From NCBI GenBank assembly GCA_030528355.1, contig JAUMZA010000001.1, positions 1-64,000 on the forward strand: a stretch of 64,000 nucleotides of DNA, in the 5' to 3' direction. The notes below the pieces were generated by a model. The model saw only the letters and a list, made by a program, of their open reading frames with translations. It ran no database searches and was not told the DNA's origin. Origin of the DNA: Candidatus Saccharimonadota bacterium (lineage in GTDB: Bacteria; Patescibacteriota; Saccharimonadia; Saccharimonadales; Saccharimonadaceae). Shown here piece after piece: positions 43,275-51,844 of the stretch; within the stretch, counting starts at the first letter, position 1, and each line of letters starts with the position of its first letter. The position numbers and the translations under genes are program-made.

Positions 43275-44396
43275 TTACGCTTCGTTTGATTCTTCCAGTG
43301 CACTAAACAGGCTATCTTCAACATTCTTGCGAGGTTTTTCTTTCGGTGCCTCGAGCTGCTTGGTTTCGATGTCAAGCTCGTAACCCGTCAAACGACTGGC
43401 GAGGCGTACATTTTGCCCACCACGGCCAATCGCAATTGACTGCTGGTCTTCCGTCACAAGCACCTTGGCGCGAGTCGCCTCTTCATCAATTTCGATTGAA
43501 AGCACCTCGGCTGGACTCAACGCATTGCGGATATATTCCTTAGCATCTTCATCAAACGGCACGATGTCGATTTTTTCACTCTCGCCCACTTCGTTCATCA
43601 CCGCCTGAACACGAGTGCCGTGGCCACCCACAAAAGTACCAACTGCATCAACCCCTGGCACAGTGCTTGCAACTGCAATCTTTGTGCGGCGGCCAGCCTC
43701 ACGGGCGATGCCTTTAATTTCTACCGCACCAGTTTCCATTTCTGGCACTTCTTGGCGGAAGAGATATTCCATAAAAGCTTCGCTGCCACGGCTCAAAATG
43801 AGCTGCGGGCCACGATTTTCACGCTCGATGTCCTTAATATACACCTTAATGCGGGCACCAACGCTGTAATACTCACCCTGAATTTGCTCGCTTTGTGGCA
43901 AAATACCGGTTGCCTTGCCAAGTTCAACTCGCACCACTCGTGGCTCAACTCGCTGCACGATACCAGTTACGACAGTGCCGATTTTATCTTCAAATTCAGC
44001 CAACACCACTTCACGCTCAGCTTCACGCAAACGCTGCAATACTACCTGCTTGGCAGTTTGTGCTGCTACACGACCAAAGGTGGTGACTTCGTGCATTTCT
44101 TCTACAACACCGCCAATTTCTGCATCTGGATTATCTTGCTTAGCCTCTTCAAGGCTAATTTCGGTAATATCGCTAGTTGGCTCTTCTACAATATCACGTA
44201 CCACAAACACCTTTGCCGTACCTTCTACGGTATTAAGCTCGGCACGAACGTTTTGTTCACGCTCACCGTTATCACGCCGCCAAGCTGCAGCGATAGCTTG
44301 TTCAATCACGCTCAGCACGGTTTCTTCGGGGAGATTCTTCTCCTCGGCAATGGCACGCACTGCAAGTGTGAGTTGTTTTAGATTAATGTCTTCCAT
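43275..44396 (-). CDS. nusA: Transcription termination/antitermination factor NusA
   Basis: RNA polymerase-associated factor, 373 aa. An N-terminal polymerase-binding domain is followed by S1 (about 135-200, GTVVTGIVQRVEPRVVRVEL) and two KH domains (VGTFVGGHGTRVQAVMNEV and SIAIGRGGQNVRLASRLTG). The acidic repeats of some Proteobacteria are missing, as usual outside them. SD GAAGGAG. The leader carries a terminator-like hairpin (44426-44449), suggesting autoregulation. Confidence 0.96.
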   Translation of the reverse strand: MEDINLKQLTLAVRAIAEEKNLPEETVLSVIEQAIAAAWRRDNGEREQNVRAELNTVEGTAKVFVVRDIVEEPTSDITEISLEEAKQDNPDAEIGGVVEEMHEVTTFGRVAAQTAKQVVLQRLREAEREVVLAEFEDKIGTVVTGIVQRVEPRVVRVELGKATGILPQSEQIQGEYYSVGARIKVYIKDIERENRGPQLILSRGSEAFMEYLFRQEVPEMETGAVEIKGIAREAGRRTKIAVASTVPGVDAVGTFVGGHGTRVQAVMNEVGESEKIDIVPFDEDAKEYIRNALSPAEVLSIEIDEEATRAKVLVTEDQQSIAIGRGGQNVRLASRLTGYELDIETKQLEAPKEKPRKNVEDSLFSALEESNEA

Positions 44397-45152: not shown

Positions 45153-45488
45153 ATGAGAGGCATCTTTAAATCAATTGCTGCGCTGACATTTACCTGTCTC
45201 ATTGTCGCATTTACACCACACACAGCGGTAGCCAACACCCCTAATCAGGGGTGTTACGGATCAGAATGCATTGGCAAAGATCCTGCAAGCACGTCCTGTG
45301 TCAATGATGCGATTGCAGTCGGTTTAAACATCGCTACATCCACCGCTTTCGGCCGCAACCTACCACGCAAGAAACAAATCACCAAACATAAAACACAGAC
45401 TCTTTGCTTTTTTCGCCCTGTGCGATATACTAAAAAGAGCTTATGCTTTTGTTATGAAACAGATTTCTATTCTCACCATCGGCGATAG
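45153..45488 (+). CDS. Secreted DUF2690-like protein, probably 3'-truncated
   Basis: The 111-aa product has a clear signal peptide (MRGIFKSIAALTFTCLIVAF, cleavage after AVA) and then QGCYGSECIGKDPASTSCVN, the Cys-rich start of a DUF2690 domain. The second half of that domain (aromatic strand and last Cys-x-x-Asn-Trp) is missing. After GRNL the frame turns into basic, low-quality sequence (PRKKQITKHKTQ) and runs 35 bases into the next gene, across its promoter. It looks like a remnant whose end was lost. Confidence 0.6.
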   Translation: MRGIFKSIAALTFTCLIVAFTPHTAVANTPNQGCYGSECIGKDPASTSCVNDAIAVGLNIATSTAFGRNLPRKKQITKHKTQTLCFFRPVRYTKKSLCFCYETDFYSHHRR

Positions 45489-47454
45489 TGCCACCAATGC
45501 AATTATCCACCTACAAAAAAACGGTGTCCAGCTTGATACAAGCGATCCAAAACTACACCGCCTGCAATTGTCGCACGGCGATGAAACGCTCTACGACCGA
45601 GTTGATATTGTCCAGGCAGTTGGCTCAGCACCAAACGTTGCACTCGCTTGCACCAAATTACAGCTACAAAGTGCGGTACTTACCTGTATTGGTGATGATG
45701 CCGCCGGTTCGAATATGGTACGATACTTACAATCACACCAAGTAGCGACCGATGCCATCACGACCGCGCCACACACTAAGACCAATTATCACTACACCCT
45801 AAGCTACGACAAAGAACCAACTACACTAGTACGATACGAACCCTTTACGTACACCTGGCAATCGCCGGCAACCCCCCCGGATTGGATTTTCCTTGGCGAA
45901 CTCACCACCCAGCAGCCAGCCATTTACAACGATTTACTACAGTACCTACAGGCCAACCCTACGGTACAGTTTGCCTTTAGCCCAAGCACTACTCAGTTGT
46001 CGCAACCGGCAGAGCTACTTACTGCTTTGTATGCTCGTACCAATCTGTTGGTGGTGAATACGTCTATTGCGAACGCCATCGCCCCAAATCACACCACGAT
46101 TGAAGCCCAGTGCGAAGCCTTGCATAAGCTTGGCATTGATACGATAATTATTACCGACGGAGCAAATCCACTTCATACCAGTAGCGATCAAGGCATTATT
46201 TCGCTACCAGCCTATCCTGCAACTGCCAAAATTATTGATCGTACTGGGGCGGGCGATGCGTTTGTTGCAACCGTTATTGCCAAGCTTGCTCAAGGCAGCG
46301 ATCTCACCACAGCCGCACAGCATGCCGCCATCAACAGCATGAATGTATGCCAGCACATTGGGCCGCATGCAGGCCTGCTTACCAATGAAGGTATTGATAA
46401 GCTATTTGCTGCCGCACCTGCCGAATTCACTCCAACGGTTATCGCCCAGCCAAAGGAACTCTCTATCGAAGAAGTTGCTGCCAAGCTAGTTGCTTCGCCA
46501 AAAGGGATTTTTGCAGCCGATGAAAGTGGTGGCAGTATCGAAAAGCGTTTTGCGGAATTTGCAATTCCCTTTAGCGAAGAAAACCGTCGCTTATACCGCC
46601 AACTATTCTTTACCACACCTCATATCGAAGAATATGTCAGTGGAGTAATTTTATTTGATGAAACCGCCAGGCAACAGGCAGACGATGGCACTCCATTTGT
46701 GGAATTGCTCGAAAAGCGAGGCATTATTCCAGGCATTAAAGTTGATACTGGCCTTGTCGCCCTACCTAACTTTCCTGGCGAAACCGTTACAAGCGGACTA
46801 GATGGCCTACCTGCTCGGCTTGCAGAATATCGCAACATGGGGCTACGCTTTGCCAAGTGGCGGGCTGCCTTTGTGATCGATGGCGATAATGGTACGTTGC
46901 CAAGCAATGGAGCGATTGCCGCTAATATCCATGCCCTAGCTCGCTATGCACTAGAGTGTCAGCATGCAGATATTGTACCGATCATTGAACCAGAGATTGT
47001 CCATGCCGGTAACTTTAACCTAGAGACCTGCCGCCAAGTCACTGCCAAAGTACTTGATGCATTATTTGATGAAATTGCCCTCTTTAAGGTCAATCATAAA
47101 GCTCTACTTCTCAAAACCAGCATGGTGCTTGCGGGTAGCCAGCAGGCAATTACTCCGCCACACGAAGTAGCCGCAGCCACCGTTGATACGCTGCGAGCTC
47201 ATGTGCCACATGATGTCGCTGGTGTCGTATTCTTATCGGGCGGACAAGGTGTAGAGCAAGCCACTGAGAACTTGCGAGCCATCAACCAGCGTGGTCGCCA
47301 GCCGTGGCCACTCACCTTTAGCTACGCCCGTGCACTGCAAGAACCTGCCATCGCCCTATGGAAGGGTGACAACGCCAACACGCACGCCGCCCAACATGCT
47401 TTCCTTGCACGAGTCGAAGCAAATAGCTACGCTGCAGCTCGCCCAAATGGATAG
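45454..47454 (+). CDS. PfkB sugar kinase-class I fructose-bisphosphate aldolase fusion
   Basis: The 666-aa protein contains two complete enzymes. Residues 1 to about 320 are a PfkB/ribokinase-family kinase: substrate region GSAPNVALACTKLQLQSAVL and catalytic DRTGAGDAFVATVIAKL. Residues about 335-666 are a class I aldolase: KGIFAADESGGSIEKRF, GIIPGIKVDTG, GLRFAKWRAAF, EPEIVHAGNFN and the Schiff-base region ALLLKTSMVLAG. If the kinase acts on a hexose monophosphate, one polypeptide would make fructose 1,6-bisphosphate and split it into triose phosphates. Kinase substrate unproven. TATACT at 45426-45431 gives a leader of about 20 bases. Confidence 0.93.
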   Translation: MKQISILTIGDSATNAIIHLQKNGVQLDTSDPKLHRLQLSHGDETLYDRVDIVQAVGSAPNVALACTKLQLQSAVLTCIGDDAAGSNMVRYLQSHQVATDAITTAPHTKTNYHYTLSYDKEPTTLVRYEPFTYTWQSPATPPDWIFLGELTTQQPAIYNDLLQYLQANPTVQFAFSPSTTQLSQPAELLTALYARTNLLVVNTSIANAIAPNHTTIEAQCEALHKLGIDTIIITDGANPLHTSSDQGIISLPAYPATAKIIDRTGAGDAFVATVIAKLAQGSDLTTAAQHAAINSMNVCQHIGPHAGLLTNEGIDKLFAAAPAEFTPTVIAQPKELSIEEVAAKLVASPKGIFAADESGGSIEKRFAEFAIPFSEENRRLYRQLFFTTPHIEEYVSGVILFDETARQQADDGTPFVELLEKRGIIPGIKVDTGLVALPNFPGETVTSGLDGLPARLAEYRNMGLRFAKWRAAFVIDGDNGTLPSNGAIAANIHALARYALECQHADIVPIIEPEIVHAGNFNLETCRQVTAKVLDALFDEIALFKVNHKALLLKTSMVLAGSQQAITPPHEVAAATVDTLRAHVPHDVAGVVFLSGGQGVEQATENLRAINQRGRQPWPLTFSYARALQEPAIALWKGDNANTHAAQHAFLARVEANSYAAARPNG

Positions 47455-47542: not shown

Positions 47543-48550
47543 ATGGAGCAACGCATCCCTGTTATTATTCTGGCCGGATTTCTCGGTGCCGGCAAAACCA
47601 CCGCCCTAAACCATATCCTGCGGCACAGTAATGGGCAAAAGATTGGTGTCATTGTCAACGATTTTGGCGAAGTTAATATTGACGCTCTACTTGTGAGCAA
47701 ACAGACCGAAAACACCATGGAACTTTCGGGCGGCTGCATTTGTTGCCAGATGAGCGATGGCGGACTTGATGAAACGCTGCAAACCTTTGCCCACCCCGGT
47801 TCGACTATCGATGCAATTTTGATTGAGGCCAGCGGCATCGCCGAGCCATCAGATCTGCGTAAGCTGGTTTTGTATAGTAGTAACAAGCACATTTCGATGA
47901 ACGGCGTAGTGTATTTTGTAGATGCCGCCAATATTCGCCAGCAGCTGGTTGATCACCCCGACATCGCTCATCACATTGCTGCCGCCGATTTGCTGGTACT
48001 TAACAAGATAGATTTAGTTTCTGCAGCAGCACTTACTCACATCGAACAGCTGCTACGCACCCATAATCCAGAAGCGATCATCACTCGCACAACCAATGGA
48101 GCAGTTAGTCCAGAATTATTATTCGATGCCCATCACACCAAATCAAACGAACAGCTCAGCCTTGCTGCGGCAGAGGCGGATCATCACCATAACCACCTGC
48201 ACGACGCTTTCACTTCCATTAGTTTCACCACCGAACAACCGCTCAGCCCACAACGCTTCGAACACTTTTTAACCACATTGCCAAGCTCGGTTTATCGACT
48301 AAAAGGTATCCTATATTACGGCATGAAGGGCTTTGAGCAAAAAATTGTCATACACAAAGTGGGCAATCATCTACAGCAAGCGGCTGAAGAATGGCGGGGT
48401 TACGAAACGCCTGGTACGCGACTAGTGGCAATTGGGGTTGCGATTGATGAACCAGCCCTGCGTCAAGCACTTGAAGCCTGTATCGACCCGACACCAGATG
48501 ATATTTCGGCTGATGATATGGTTGATATTATGCGGCTAAAAGGCTTTTAG
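47543..48550 (+). CDS. COG0523 (CobW/P47K) GTPase, putative metallochaperone
   Basis: The 335-aa G3E GTPase has Walker A LAGFLGAGKTTALNH, the metal motif GGCICC (CxCC), Walker B/G3 ILIEASGIAEP and NKID. A His cluster DHHHNHLHDAF (about 213-223) and a CobW C-terminal domain follow. Family members bind zinc or other metals and deliver them to client proteins. The mRNA should be leaderless: TACAAT ends seven bases before the ATG. Lone gene between the kinase-aldolase and the nuclease. Confidence 0.92.
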   Translation: MEQRIPVIILAGFLGAGKTTALNHILRHSNGQKIGVIVNDFGEVNIDALLVSKQTENTMELSGGCICCQMSDGGLDETLQTFAHPGSTIDAILIEASGIAEPSDLRKLVLYSSNKHISMNGVVYFVDAANIRQQLVDHPDIAHHIAAADLLVLNKIDLVSAAALTHIEQLLRTHNPEAIITRTTNGAVSPELLFDAHHTKSNEQLSLAAAEADHHHNHLHDAFTSISFTTEQPLSPQRFEHFLTTLPSSVYRLKGILYYGMKGFEQKIVIHKVGNHLQQAAEEWRGYETPGTRLVAIGVAIDEPALRQALEACIDPTPDDISADDMVDIMRLKGF

Positions 48551-48557
48551 CTACTTG

Positions 48558-49292
48558 CTATTTTGCAGGGAGTGGTTGTGTAGGGCAGCTTGATAATACC
48601 CGCTGCATTGCCATGTTTTCACCAGGCGTTACCCATAAGCCATACTTATGCTTCACTGCAATTTGCCGTGCCACGTACGCACAACGGTACGGCTTGTGCG
48701 ATGGCAGCCAGGTTGCCGCATCACTATCACCCTTTTCCTGGTTAGCTGCACCATCCACCGCCAAAAGATTGAGTGGATCGTTGGCGAATTCATTGCGACG
48801 TTCTGGCGAAAGCAGCTGTGCACCAGTTTGCCAGGCATTACTTAAAGCCACTACATGGTCAATCTGCACCTTTTCGCTACTCGTTGGTCCACGTAAAAAC
48901 TCTATTACCTTGCCAGTATACGGATCGTGCAGTGTACCACGCTGCACTTTACATCGTTCATCAACCACAACATCTCGCAAATCCCTATGCAAAATCTCAT
49001 TGCGTGTATCACACCCGTTTGCAAATCGCTGCCAACCAGCCCCAAACTGTGCCCGTCGATACGCTGTTTTCGGTGCCCGACCTTTCACCTCTAGCTGGGC
49101 CAGATAATGCATCGCACCTGCTACTGACTGCGTAGCCTGCACTTGCAAGGGTCGCCCTGCCGGAGCCGCAGCTGGTGGCGTTTCTTGCCACTTGGCAACA
49201 ATTGCCCCGCTCGTTGCCACCGCAGCCAACAACAAACTTGCCACTAAACGACGAACTCGATAATTTGGCCGATATGAACGTGCATGCTTCAT
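48558..49292 (-). CDS. Secreted HNH-type nuclease, DUF1524-like
   Basis: The 244-aa protein begins MKHARSYRPNYRVRRLVASL with a signal/TM helix (about residues 15-33). The C-terminal half matches secreted DUF1524 HNH endonucleases: VQIDHVVALSNAWQTGAQLL with the catalytic DHVV, NDPLNLLAVDGAANQEKGD, and AATWLP. It should cut nucleic acid outside the cell. TATACT ends seven bases before ATG 49292, so that start is chosen over 49409, which lies in the divergent gene. Confidence 0.85.
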   Translation of the reverse strand: MKHARSYRPNYRVRRLVASLLLAAVATSGAIVAKWQETPPAAAPAGRPLQVQATQSVAGAMHYLAQLEVKGRAPKTAYRRAQFGAGWQRFANGCDTRNEILHRDLRDVVVDERCKVQRGTLHDPYTGKVIEFLRGPTSSEKVQIDHVVALSNAWQTGAQLLSPERRNEFANDPLNLLAVDGAANQEKGDSDAATWLPSHKPYRCAYVARQIAVKHKYGLWVTPGENMAMQRVLSSCPTQPLPAK

Positions 49293-49330
49293 ACTTTTCA
49301 GTATACCGCAAAGCTTGCTACAATAGATAT

Positions 49331-51844
49331 ATGCATACGTTTTCTCGACTTTTAGAAACATTTTCACCAAGCAACTATAATCTATCGCTTCATCTTGATC
49401 GTGCGGCACGTACCTTTGGTGGCGTTGTGACGATTACCGGCACATTACAGCAATCAGACTATCTGCCACTACACGCCAAAGATCTCACTATTGAATCTGC
49501 CAGTATTGATGGCAAAGCCGCCCATGTTAGCCAGCACGAGCATGACGAAATCCGCCTTTCGCAAGCCGATTTGCAACCCGGCGAACATATCGCCGTCATC
49601 GCCTTTTCTGGCACTATCACCGATACTATGACCGGCCTGTACCCGTGTTATTTTGAACACGATGGCGTGAAAAAAGAGCTGCTCGCCACCCAGTTCGAAA
49701 GCCACCACGCCCGAGAAGCCTTTCCGTGCGTTGACGAACCAGCCGCCAAGGCCACGTTTGATCTTACCCTTAGCACTGAAGCGGGGGTTAAAGTGCTCAG
49801 CAATATGCCAATCGCTCACCAAAAGCCAGGCAGCGACACCACACCAATGGTAACCGTGTTTGAAACCACGCCTAAAATGAGCACCTACCTGCTCGCCTGG
49901 GTGGTCGGCGAACTCCACAAACAAACTGCCCACACCAAAAGCGGCGTCGAAGTCAATGTCTGGGCAACGCCCGCCCAGCCAACTGCCAACCTTACATTTG
50001 CGCTTGATATTGCCACCCGCTGTATTGATTTTTACGATGATTATTTTGGCGTACCATACCCGCTCCCAAAGTGCGACCACGTTGCCCTGCCAGATTTTAG
50101 CAGCGGTGCCATGGAAAACTGGGGCTTGATTACCTACCGCGAAATTGCCCTGCTGGCCAGCCCTAACAGCAGCGTGGATACTCGCCGCTACGTCGCCACC
50201 GTCATCACCCACGAACTCGCCCACCAATGGTTTGGCAATCTTGTGACAATGCAATGGTGGGATGATTTGTGGCTAAATGAAAGTTTTGCCACCATGATGG
50301 AATACATCGCCGTGGACGCCCTCGAGCCAAGCTGGAATATTTGGCGAGATTTTGCCGCCAACGAAGCGGTGATGGCATTGCGTCGTGATAGCCTTGATGG
50401 CGTACAGCCGGTGCATCTACCCGTCAATCACCCAGATGAAATCAGCACACTATTTGACGGGGCGATTGTCTACGCTAAAGGTGCCAAGCTGATGCGTATG
50501 ATGCAGCACTACATTGGTGATACTGATTTTCGAGCTGGGCTACGCACCTACTTTACCAAGTTTGCCCACCAAAACACCACCGGGCAAGATTTGTGGGATA
50601 CGCTCGGTGAGGCTAGTGGTAAAGATATATCCGGCTTGATGAACGCCTGGATTCACCAAAGCGGCTTCCCGCTCGTCACTATCGCAGAAACAGCCGATGG
50701 TGCCACGCTGACGCAGTCACAATTCTTTGTCGGGCCGCATCAACCAAGCACGCAAACCTGGCCAATTCCGTTAGTAGCAACCAACCTAGATTTGCCCGCT
50801 ATTCTTGAAAGCAAATCACACACTACCGCCACCACCGAGCCGTTCTTCTTAAATAACGAAGACACCTCGCACTTTATCACGCACTACCCAGCTTCGTTCA
50901 TCCAGGCTCGCCTAGCGGATATTCGCAACCTTGCCGCCAGCGAAATTACCCGCCTGCAGTTCCTACACGAACAAACCTTACTTGCCAAAGCGGGCATTAT
51001 TCAGCTAGCTGATATTTTACCAATCCTTGATGCCTACCGCCACGAAACCAACGAAGCCGTCTGGGGCATTATTAGCCTGGCGATTGGCGAAATCCGCCGC
51101 ACGATTGAAGGTGACGACGATACCGAAGCACGGCTCAAACAGTACGTCGCCGCATTGGTTCGCCCGCAATACGACCGCCTTGGCTGGCAAGCGATTGATG
51201 GTGAATCTGACAATGACGCCGTGCTGCGCGGCACGATTATCTCGCTGATGCTCTACGCTGAAGATAAGGATGCCATCAGCACCGCCCACCAGCTTTACAC
51301 CAGCAGTAGCCTGCACGACCTTAACCCAGAGCTACGTGCCAGCTTGATTGCTAACGAAGTGCGTCATTTTAAGGCCGATATTACCGCCCTACTCGCCACC
51401 TACACAAAAGAAACTGATGGCGATGTACAGGGTGATCTTGCCAGCGGCATTACCGCTACTCGCACACCCGCCCACGTTCAGGCTATTCTTACCGCCCTGC
51501 AGCAAAAAGACACCATCCGTCCGCAAGATGTCTTCCGCTGGTTTGCCTACCTTATGCGCAACCGCCACACCCGCACCGCTACCTGGCAGTGGATGCGTGA
51601 TAATTGGCAGTGGATTGAACAAACCTTTGCTAGCGATAAAAGCCTTGATTACTTCCCGCGTTACGCCGCCAATTCACTCTGCACTGCTAGCGAGCTTACC
51701 GAATACACCACCTTCTTTACCCCGCATCTGCAAAACCAAAGCTTGGCTCGTGCTATTACCATTGGCGAGGGCGAAATTACTGGCCGAATCGAGCAAATCG
51801 AACGCGACAAGCCGGCAATTATTGCAGCGCTGCAGCAGATGTAA
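49331..51844 (+). CDS. pepN: M1-family zinc aminopeptidase
   Basis: The 837-aa aminopeptidase N-type enzyme has the exopeptidase motif GAMENWGLITYRE, then zinc motif HELAHQWFGNLVTMQWWDDL with the third ligand Glu in WLNESFATMMEY. The ERAP-like C-terminal domain completes a full-length enzyme. It trims peptides to free amino acids, sensible for a cell that imports its amino acids. No signal peptide, so cytoplasmic. The start is fixed by TACAAT ending six bases before ATG 49331 (TGC extended). Confidence 0.94.
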   Translation: MHTFSRLLETFSPSNYNLSLHLDRAARTFGGVVTITGTLQQSDYLPLHAKDLTIESASIDGKAAHVSQHEHDEIRLSQADLQPGEHIAVIAFSGTITDTMTGLYPCYFEHDGVKKELLATQFESHHAREAFPCVDEPAAKATFDLTLSTEAGVKVLSNMPIAHQKPGSDTTPMVTVFETTPKMSTYLLAWVVGELHKQTAHTKSGVEVNVWATPAQPTANLTFALDIATRCIDFYDDYFGVPYPLPKCDHVALPDFSSGAMENWGLITYREIALLASPNSSVDTRRYVATVITHELAHQWFGNLVTMQWWDDLWLNESFATMMEYIAVDALEPSWNIWRDFAANEAVMALRRDSLDGVQPVHLPVNHPDEISTLFDGAIVYAKGAKLMRMMQHYIGDTDFRAGLRTYFTKFAHQNTTGQDLWDTLGEASGKDISGLMNAWIHQSGFPLVTIAETADGATLTQSQFFVGPHQPSTQTWPIPLVATNLDLPAILESKSHTTATTEPFFLNNEDTSHFITHYPASFIQARLADIRNLAASEITRLQFLHEQTLLAKAGIIQLADILPILDAYRHETNEAVWGIISLAIGEIRRTIEGDDDTEARLKQYVAALVRPQYDRLGWQAIDGESDNDAVLRGTIISLMLYAEDKDAISTAHQLYTSSSLHDLNPELRASLIANEVRHFKADITALLATYTKETDGDVQGDLASGITATRTPAHVQAILTALQQKDTIRPQDVFRWFAYLMRNRHTRTATWQWMRDNWQWIEQTFASDKSLDYFPRYAANSLCTASELTEYTTFFTPHLQNQSLARAITIGEGEITGRIEQIERDKPAIIAALQQM

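Follow-up and report, generated by a model that had tools for sequence, protein, structure and literature searches.

In published accounts of Saccharibacterial metabolism, phosphofructokinase (PFK) is absent, and a bypass through the pentose-phosphate pathway is assumed in its place (PMC6031116, PMC7786006, PMC8386444). For Nanosynbacter lyticus TM7x, a recent prediction assigns the PFK role to a PfkB protein encoded in an operon with fructose-bisphosphate aldolase (FBA) (PMC12815258), and E. histolytica and clostridia have been described as closing the pentose pathway with a kinase and FBA that act on sedoheptulose 7-phosphate (review: PMC12203962). In the open literature, with most subscription journals outside the search, no report of a fusion of PfkB to FBA, or of a pseudokinase form, turned up. 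Here we describe such a fusion in a genome of Candidatus Saccharimonadota (assembly GCA_030528355.1), within a window that comprises the first 64,000 nucleotides of contig JAUMZA010000001.1. We favor, with a probability of roughly two in three, a reading in which the protein would serve as an aldolase whose kinase half is weak or dead, redundant with a second type of PfkB kinase encoded in an operon on the same contig, and decaying.

The fusion gene spans positions 45454-47454 of the forward strand and encodes 666 residues: a PfkB kinase domain of the type that we call B (approximately aa 1-325, 45454-46428; delimited by Pfam, column conservation and identities), a linker (aa 326-337, 46429-46464) and a class I FBA domain (aa 338-661, 46465-47436; delimited by Pfam, a structure match and column conservation). 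Pfam places PfkB (PF00294) at aa 57-306 (E = 5.9e-29, 101.8 bits against a cut-off of 25.8) and class I FBA at aa 339-661 (E = 1.8e-111). A first-pass annotation had described one frame encoding these two enzymes and had pointed to the motifs DRTGAGDAF and LLKTSMVLAG. The open reading frame, Pfam and NCBIfam uphold that architecture, and both motifs are present, the first at aa 262-270 (46237-46263) and the second around K554 (47107-47136). An AlphaFold model of the whole protein is confident in both halves (pLDDT 84), with a pTM of 0.55 that leaves their mutual packing uncertain. The genome is a draft of 21 contigs, in which an assembly chimera or a misread frame could mimic a fusion; we consider this next to inconceivable. 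The frame is unbroken, and three genomes of a sister genus have the identical architecture. The fusion adjoins NusA (43275-44396, reverse strand, in the window) and ClpC both here and in the two sister-genus genomes that were checked. Because the sister genus shares this architecture and context, and because both halves are modeled confidently, the locus is not an assembly join and is a genuine translational fusion of a Saccharibacterial type-B PfkB kinase to a class I FBA. A near-identity search of plasmids matched nothing.

The search for the same fusion in other Saccharibacteria was productive: among 295 genomes of the order, a full-length fusion with a recognizable kinase is found in the window genome and in the three sister-genus genomes, whose proteins are 52-54% identical to the window protein. 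About 40 further genomes of the family encode a protein of 600-650 aa in which the aldolase half matches and the kinase half barely does. A single branch (support 100/99) sets all 52 fusions to one side of an aldolase tree, and the window and sister-genus proteins form a clade (support 100/98); the fusion may have had a single origin. Outside Saccharibacteria, there was no true fusion among the best 80 loci of the genome collection; apparent FBA fusions there (L085, L100, L117) are spurious upstream frame extensions in GC-rich DNA. A further candidate (L101) was rejected, as FBA and kinase are separate genes there, the kinase being of the type that we call A. Relatives of 505-515 aa are neither kinases with a novel 180-aa C-terminal domain nor KDPG-aldolase fusions: their additional part lies at the N-terminus and is similar to the beginning of an operon gene, X, that is described below.

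Within the genus of the window genome, the fusion was found nowhere in a congener (G295; 96% complete, 8% contamination). NusA is followed there, after 142 bp, by the CobW-family GTPase gene that lies at 47543-48550 (forward strand) in the window. Judged by gene content, the fusion is dispensable within the genus. Adjacent sequence in the window (48558-49409, reverse strand) encodes a protein that appears to bear a signal peptide and contains a GmrSD C-terminal (HNH-type) nuclease domain.

The aldolase half scores 422.3 bits against the NCBIfam class I FBA model NF033379 (curated cut-off 250), and its best solved relative is the bacterial class I FBA 3MMT from Bartonella (47% identity). It keeps 57 of 58 near-invariant columns and the Schiff-base lysine K554, which is invariant in the alignment; the proposal that the aldolase active site is intact therefore holds. 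We infer that the fusion works as an aldolase, splitting fructose bisphosphate (FBP), and possibly sedoheptulose bisphosphate too, to triose phosphate.

The parallel proposal for the kinase active site fails, and the presence of DRTGAGDAF does not imply that this site is intact. Residues were mapped by alignment to Pfk-2, with letters verified against 3CQD, and, more provisionally, to RbsK (positions D16, D255, E143 and K43). The GxGD motif is present (G265-D268), its catalytic D268 aligning with Pfk-2 D256 and RbsK D255, and the anion-hole glycines are retained. Five positions that are invariant in all 65 kinases of both types (48 type B, 17 type A) are replaced, all on the forward strand: D15N, the N-terminal substrate-binding Asp (45496-45498; aligned with RbsK D16); K44E (45583-45585; aligned with Pfk-2 K27); R122P (45817-45819); E205I, the Glu of the NxxE motif, which reads N202-T-S-I205 (46066-46068; aligned with Pfk-2 E190); and G239P, the Gly of the DGxxG ATP loop (46168-46170; aligned with Pfk-2 G229). 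The window kinase keeps 44 of 60 columns that are invariant among 48 other type-B kinases, a set of stand-alone kinases, kinases with an N-terminal extension and kinases fused to FBA. Each of these 48 orthologues keeps 95-100% of the 60 columns, and all three sister-genus fusions keep 60 of 60. We take D15 and K44 to act in substrate binding and G239 in the nucleotide loop. The NXXE Glu of Pfk-2 is a ligand of the catalytic Mg2+ (PMC10339645). In the window kinase, residues that serve substrate, Mg-ATP and nucleotide-loop binding are gone; by its motifs, it is a PfkB homologue in which NxxE is damaged and which should not be presumed an active member of the family.

Divergence of the kinase half is consistent with this assessment. 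Its identity is 41% between window and sister genus and 37% between window and family, against 62.5% between sister genus and family, and the end branch of the window kinase measures 5.9 against a median of 0.29. The aldolase halves of window and sister genus are equally close to outgroups (51.4% and 50.5% identity, respectively). The rate acceleration is confined to the kinase half, with the aldolase half under normal constraint; the window lineage is represented by one copy in these data. The surviving GAGD and the well-kept residues 263-325, the best-kept stretch of the window kinase (58% identity to the sister genus), count against decay, since a fully unconstrained domain would show neither; the open frame speaks against it too. 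Conservation that is best in GAGD and the C-terminal ATP half, together with the intact frame, could also suit a neofunctionalized kinase, active on another substrate, for which loss of D15 and K44 would mark changed specificity. We judge this very improbable: the NxxE Glu (for Mg) and the nucleotide-loop Gly are required in PfkB kinases for any sugar, and E205 and G239 are both gone from the window copy.

A gap in pfkA, which the first-pass annotation had suggested the fusion could fill, does exist: there is no pfkA (PF00365) in the window genome, and none was found in 291 of the 295 genomes of the order, which otherwise gave two clear and two weak matches. One genus (g51) has a clear PfkA (L144; G023:C3:287342-288256) and has also kept kinase B; this PfkA is probably a horizontal gain. 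That the fusion fills the gap is not borne out, since the same contig carries, about 14 kb past the window, an operon rpiB-rpe-tktN-tktC-class II FBA-PfkB with a type-A kinase (G000:C15:77521-82459, equivalent to L053:13521-18459; reverse strand). From their gene context, the PfkB and class II FBA of this operon are the likely PFK and aldolase of the genome, and the operon kinase is more likely than the fusion to be its gap-filling kinase. An active bifunctional 6-phosphofructokinase-aldolase, filling the gap and channeling FBP, would agree with the near absence of pfkA from the order, with the operon arrangement of most of the order, in which a type-B kinase neighbors FBA, with the retained catalytic GAGD and with the fully conserved kinase of the sister-genus fusions. 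For the window copy, we find it quite improbable, given the loss of five residues common to both kinase types, the complete FBA II-PfkB operon on the same contig and the dispensability of the gene in the genus. The bifunctional idea is plausible for the sister genus, where the kinase half looks intact.

The gene order rpiB-rpe-tktN-tktC-FBA-PfkB-X-uvrB is conserved across the families sampled, with class II or class I FBA in the aldolase slot and type A or B in the kinase slot. In 146 genomes outside the window's family, kinase B occurs in 114, A in 25, both in none, and neither or a fragment in 7; within the family, kinase A is present in 50 of 52 genomes, and a recognizable B also in about 20. 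Because A and B take the same operon slot and exclude each other outside the family, they probably share one function, resembling that of phosphofructokinase and perhaps extending to sedoheptulose 7-phosphate. The near absence of transaldolase, found in 11 of 198 genomes and not in the window genome, suggests this second role: if kinase and FBA also accepted sedoheptulose 7-phosphate and its product, the pentose pathway would be closed without transaldolase. In 4 of the 11 genomes that have it, transaldolase lies between the FBA and PfkB kinase genes on the opposite strand (G113:C14:118632-119642, G182:C2:84018-85031, G098:C1:466228-467241 and G016:C5:11628-12632). Gene X, which follows the kinase, is conserved and encodes about 410 aa (L101:8509-9750, L153:7200-8447, L161:6396-8348); the L101 copy has no Pfam match. 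Several genera of the family have type-B kinases to which the N-terminal part of X is joined.

Gut and rumen relatives have lost the kinase motifs completely. Of 48 fused proteins from other genera, none retains GxGD; their catalytic Asp, NxxE motif and ATP loop have disappeared as well, and Pfam no longer detects the kinase domain. Homology of this pseudokinase domain to type B can still be recognized (hhalign probability 98%, E = 1e-14), with a weaker match to type A (E = 2e-7). Genomes with a pseudokinase fusion are without class II FBA, and transketolase was not found in 17 of 17 tested; 16 of the 17 have a PGI-family protein, and kinase A is retained in nearly all pseudokinase-fusion genomes. 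The window genome is the opposite, with transketolase and class II FBA and without a PF00342 PGI. By gene content, ordinary glycolysis in the pseudokinase-fusion genomes appears to have kinase A as its PFK and the fused aldolase as its FBA. One pseudokinase-aldolase (L047:506-2407, from G290) has a degenerate aldolase too (about 73-75% of invariant columns, branch 2.1), and this protein may have lost both activities.

Conservation within the pseudokinase domain is uneven: mean identity is 57% over the first 60 residues and 22-44% over the remainder, against 63-66% for the aldolase half. In PfkB kinases, the lid is the dimer interface, and the conserved first 60 residues presumably contain it. 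Because the lid region is kept nearly as well as the aldolase, the dead PfkB domain could be retained as a docking module that pairs with active kinase A and joins PFK to aldolase, with the window copy as an intermediate between bifunctional enzyme and scaffold. We regard such docking as unlikely.

Family models leave the window kinase outside the named classes that we compared. It scores 18.1 bits against the Pfk-2-type 6-phosphofructokinase model PRK10294 (curated cut-off 353), 44.8 and 41.4 bits against the 1-phosphofructokinase/hexose kinase models TIGR03168 (cut-off 216) and TIGR03828 (cut-off 292), 67.1 bits against ribokinase TIGR02152 (cut-off 299.7) and 28.2 bits against the IolC kinase/aldolase fusion NF047869 (cut-off 600). 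A fold search does not single out a substrate for the kinase, with similar scores for ribokinases, an SF kinase and a nucleoside kinase. Types A and B could instead be ribokinases that feed a pentose-phosphate operon, in which case the fusion never joined consecutive steps. The operon does contain rpiB and rpe, the nearest solved folds are ribokinases, and TM7x_02415 was originally annotated as a ribokinase (PMC12815258). Nevertheless, type A/B kinases score 67 and 134 bits, far under the equivalog cut-off of 300; RbsK E143 and K43 are not conserved in them; and all 65 type A and B kinases compared carry a Lys aligned with Pfk-2 K27. The kinase adjoins or is fused to FBA, and the transketolase-less genomes retain the fused aldolase together with kinase A and a PGI-family protein, which is a classical PGI-PFK-FBA set. 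We therefore hold the ribokinase assignment to be doubtful.

An aldolase with a decaying kinase half remains our preferred account. Phosphorylation of sugar phosphates would fall to the separate type-A PfkB of the rpiB-rpe-tkt-FBA II-PfkB operon, and the kinase half of the window copy would be weak or dead. Redundancy of the fusion in the window genome would explain both the decay of the kinase half and the loss of the gene from the congener. It would likewise explain why gut and rumen relatives, which have lost the operon transketolase and aldolase, keep the aldolase in fused form while the attached kinase domain is entirely dead. The fusions can be arranged as a series from an intact bifunctional form (sister genus) through a damaged kinase (window) to a pseudokinase with a working aldolase (gut and rumen), a series suited to the question of whether enzyme fusions become scaffolds.

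These observations offer an alternative to the view that Saccharibacteria are missing PFK: two interchangeable PfkB kinases, encoded next to transketolase and aldolase in a single conserved operon. Transaldolase, which the assumed pentose-phosphate bypass needs, is nearly absent. Like the window genome, TM7x has a PfkB kinase beside FBA and no pfkA (TM7x_02415/02420), probably in the same operon slot as kinase A of the window genome, a likeness drawn from operon position. The TM7x genes are separate, whereas the fusion in the window is a further copy, of the other kinase type. The aldolase half shares the fold, Schiff-base Lys and near-invariant columns of class I FBA (PF00274; e.g. 3MMT) and differs in its added N-terminal PfkB domain. 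The IolC-type fusion (NF047869) and the KDPG aldolase/sugar kinase fusion (NF041633) also join a PfkB kinase to the aldolase of a neighboring step, but they belong to other aldolase families and pathways, and the window protein scores 28 against 600 bits and 22.5 against 700 bits, respectively. The decayed kinase domains find a parallel in the plant fructokinase-like proteins FLN1 and FLN2, which are PfkB-type and have a non-metabolic role in a complex (PMC3409070); unlike the proteins described here, FLN1 and FLN2 act in a plastid transcription complex and are not fused to a metabolic enzyme.
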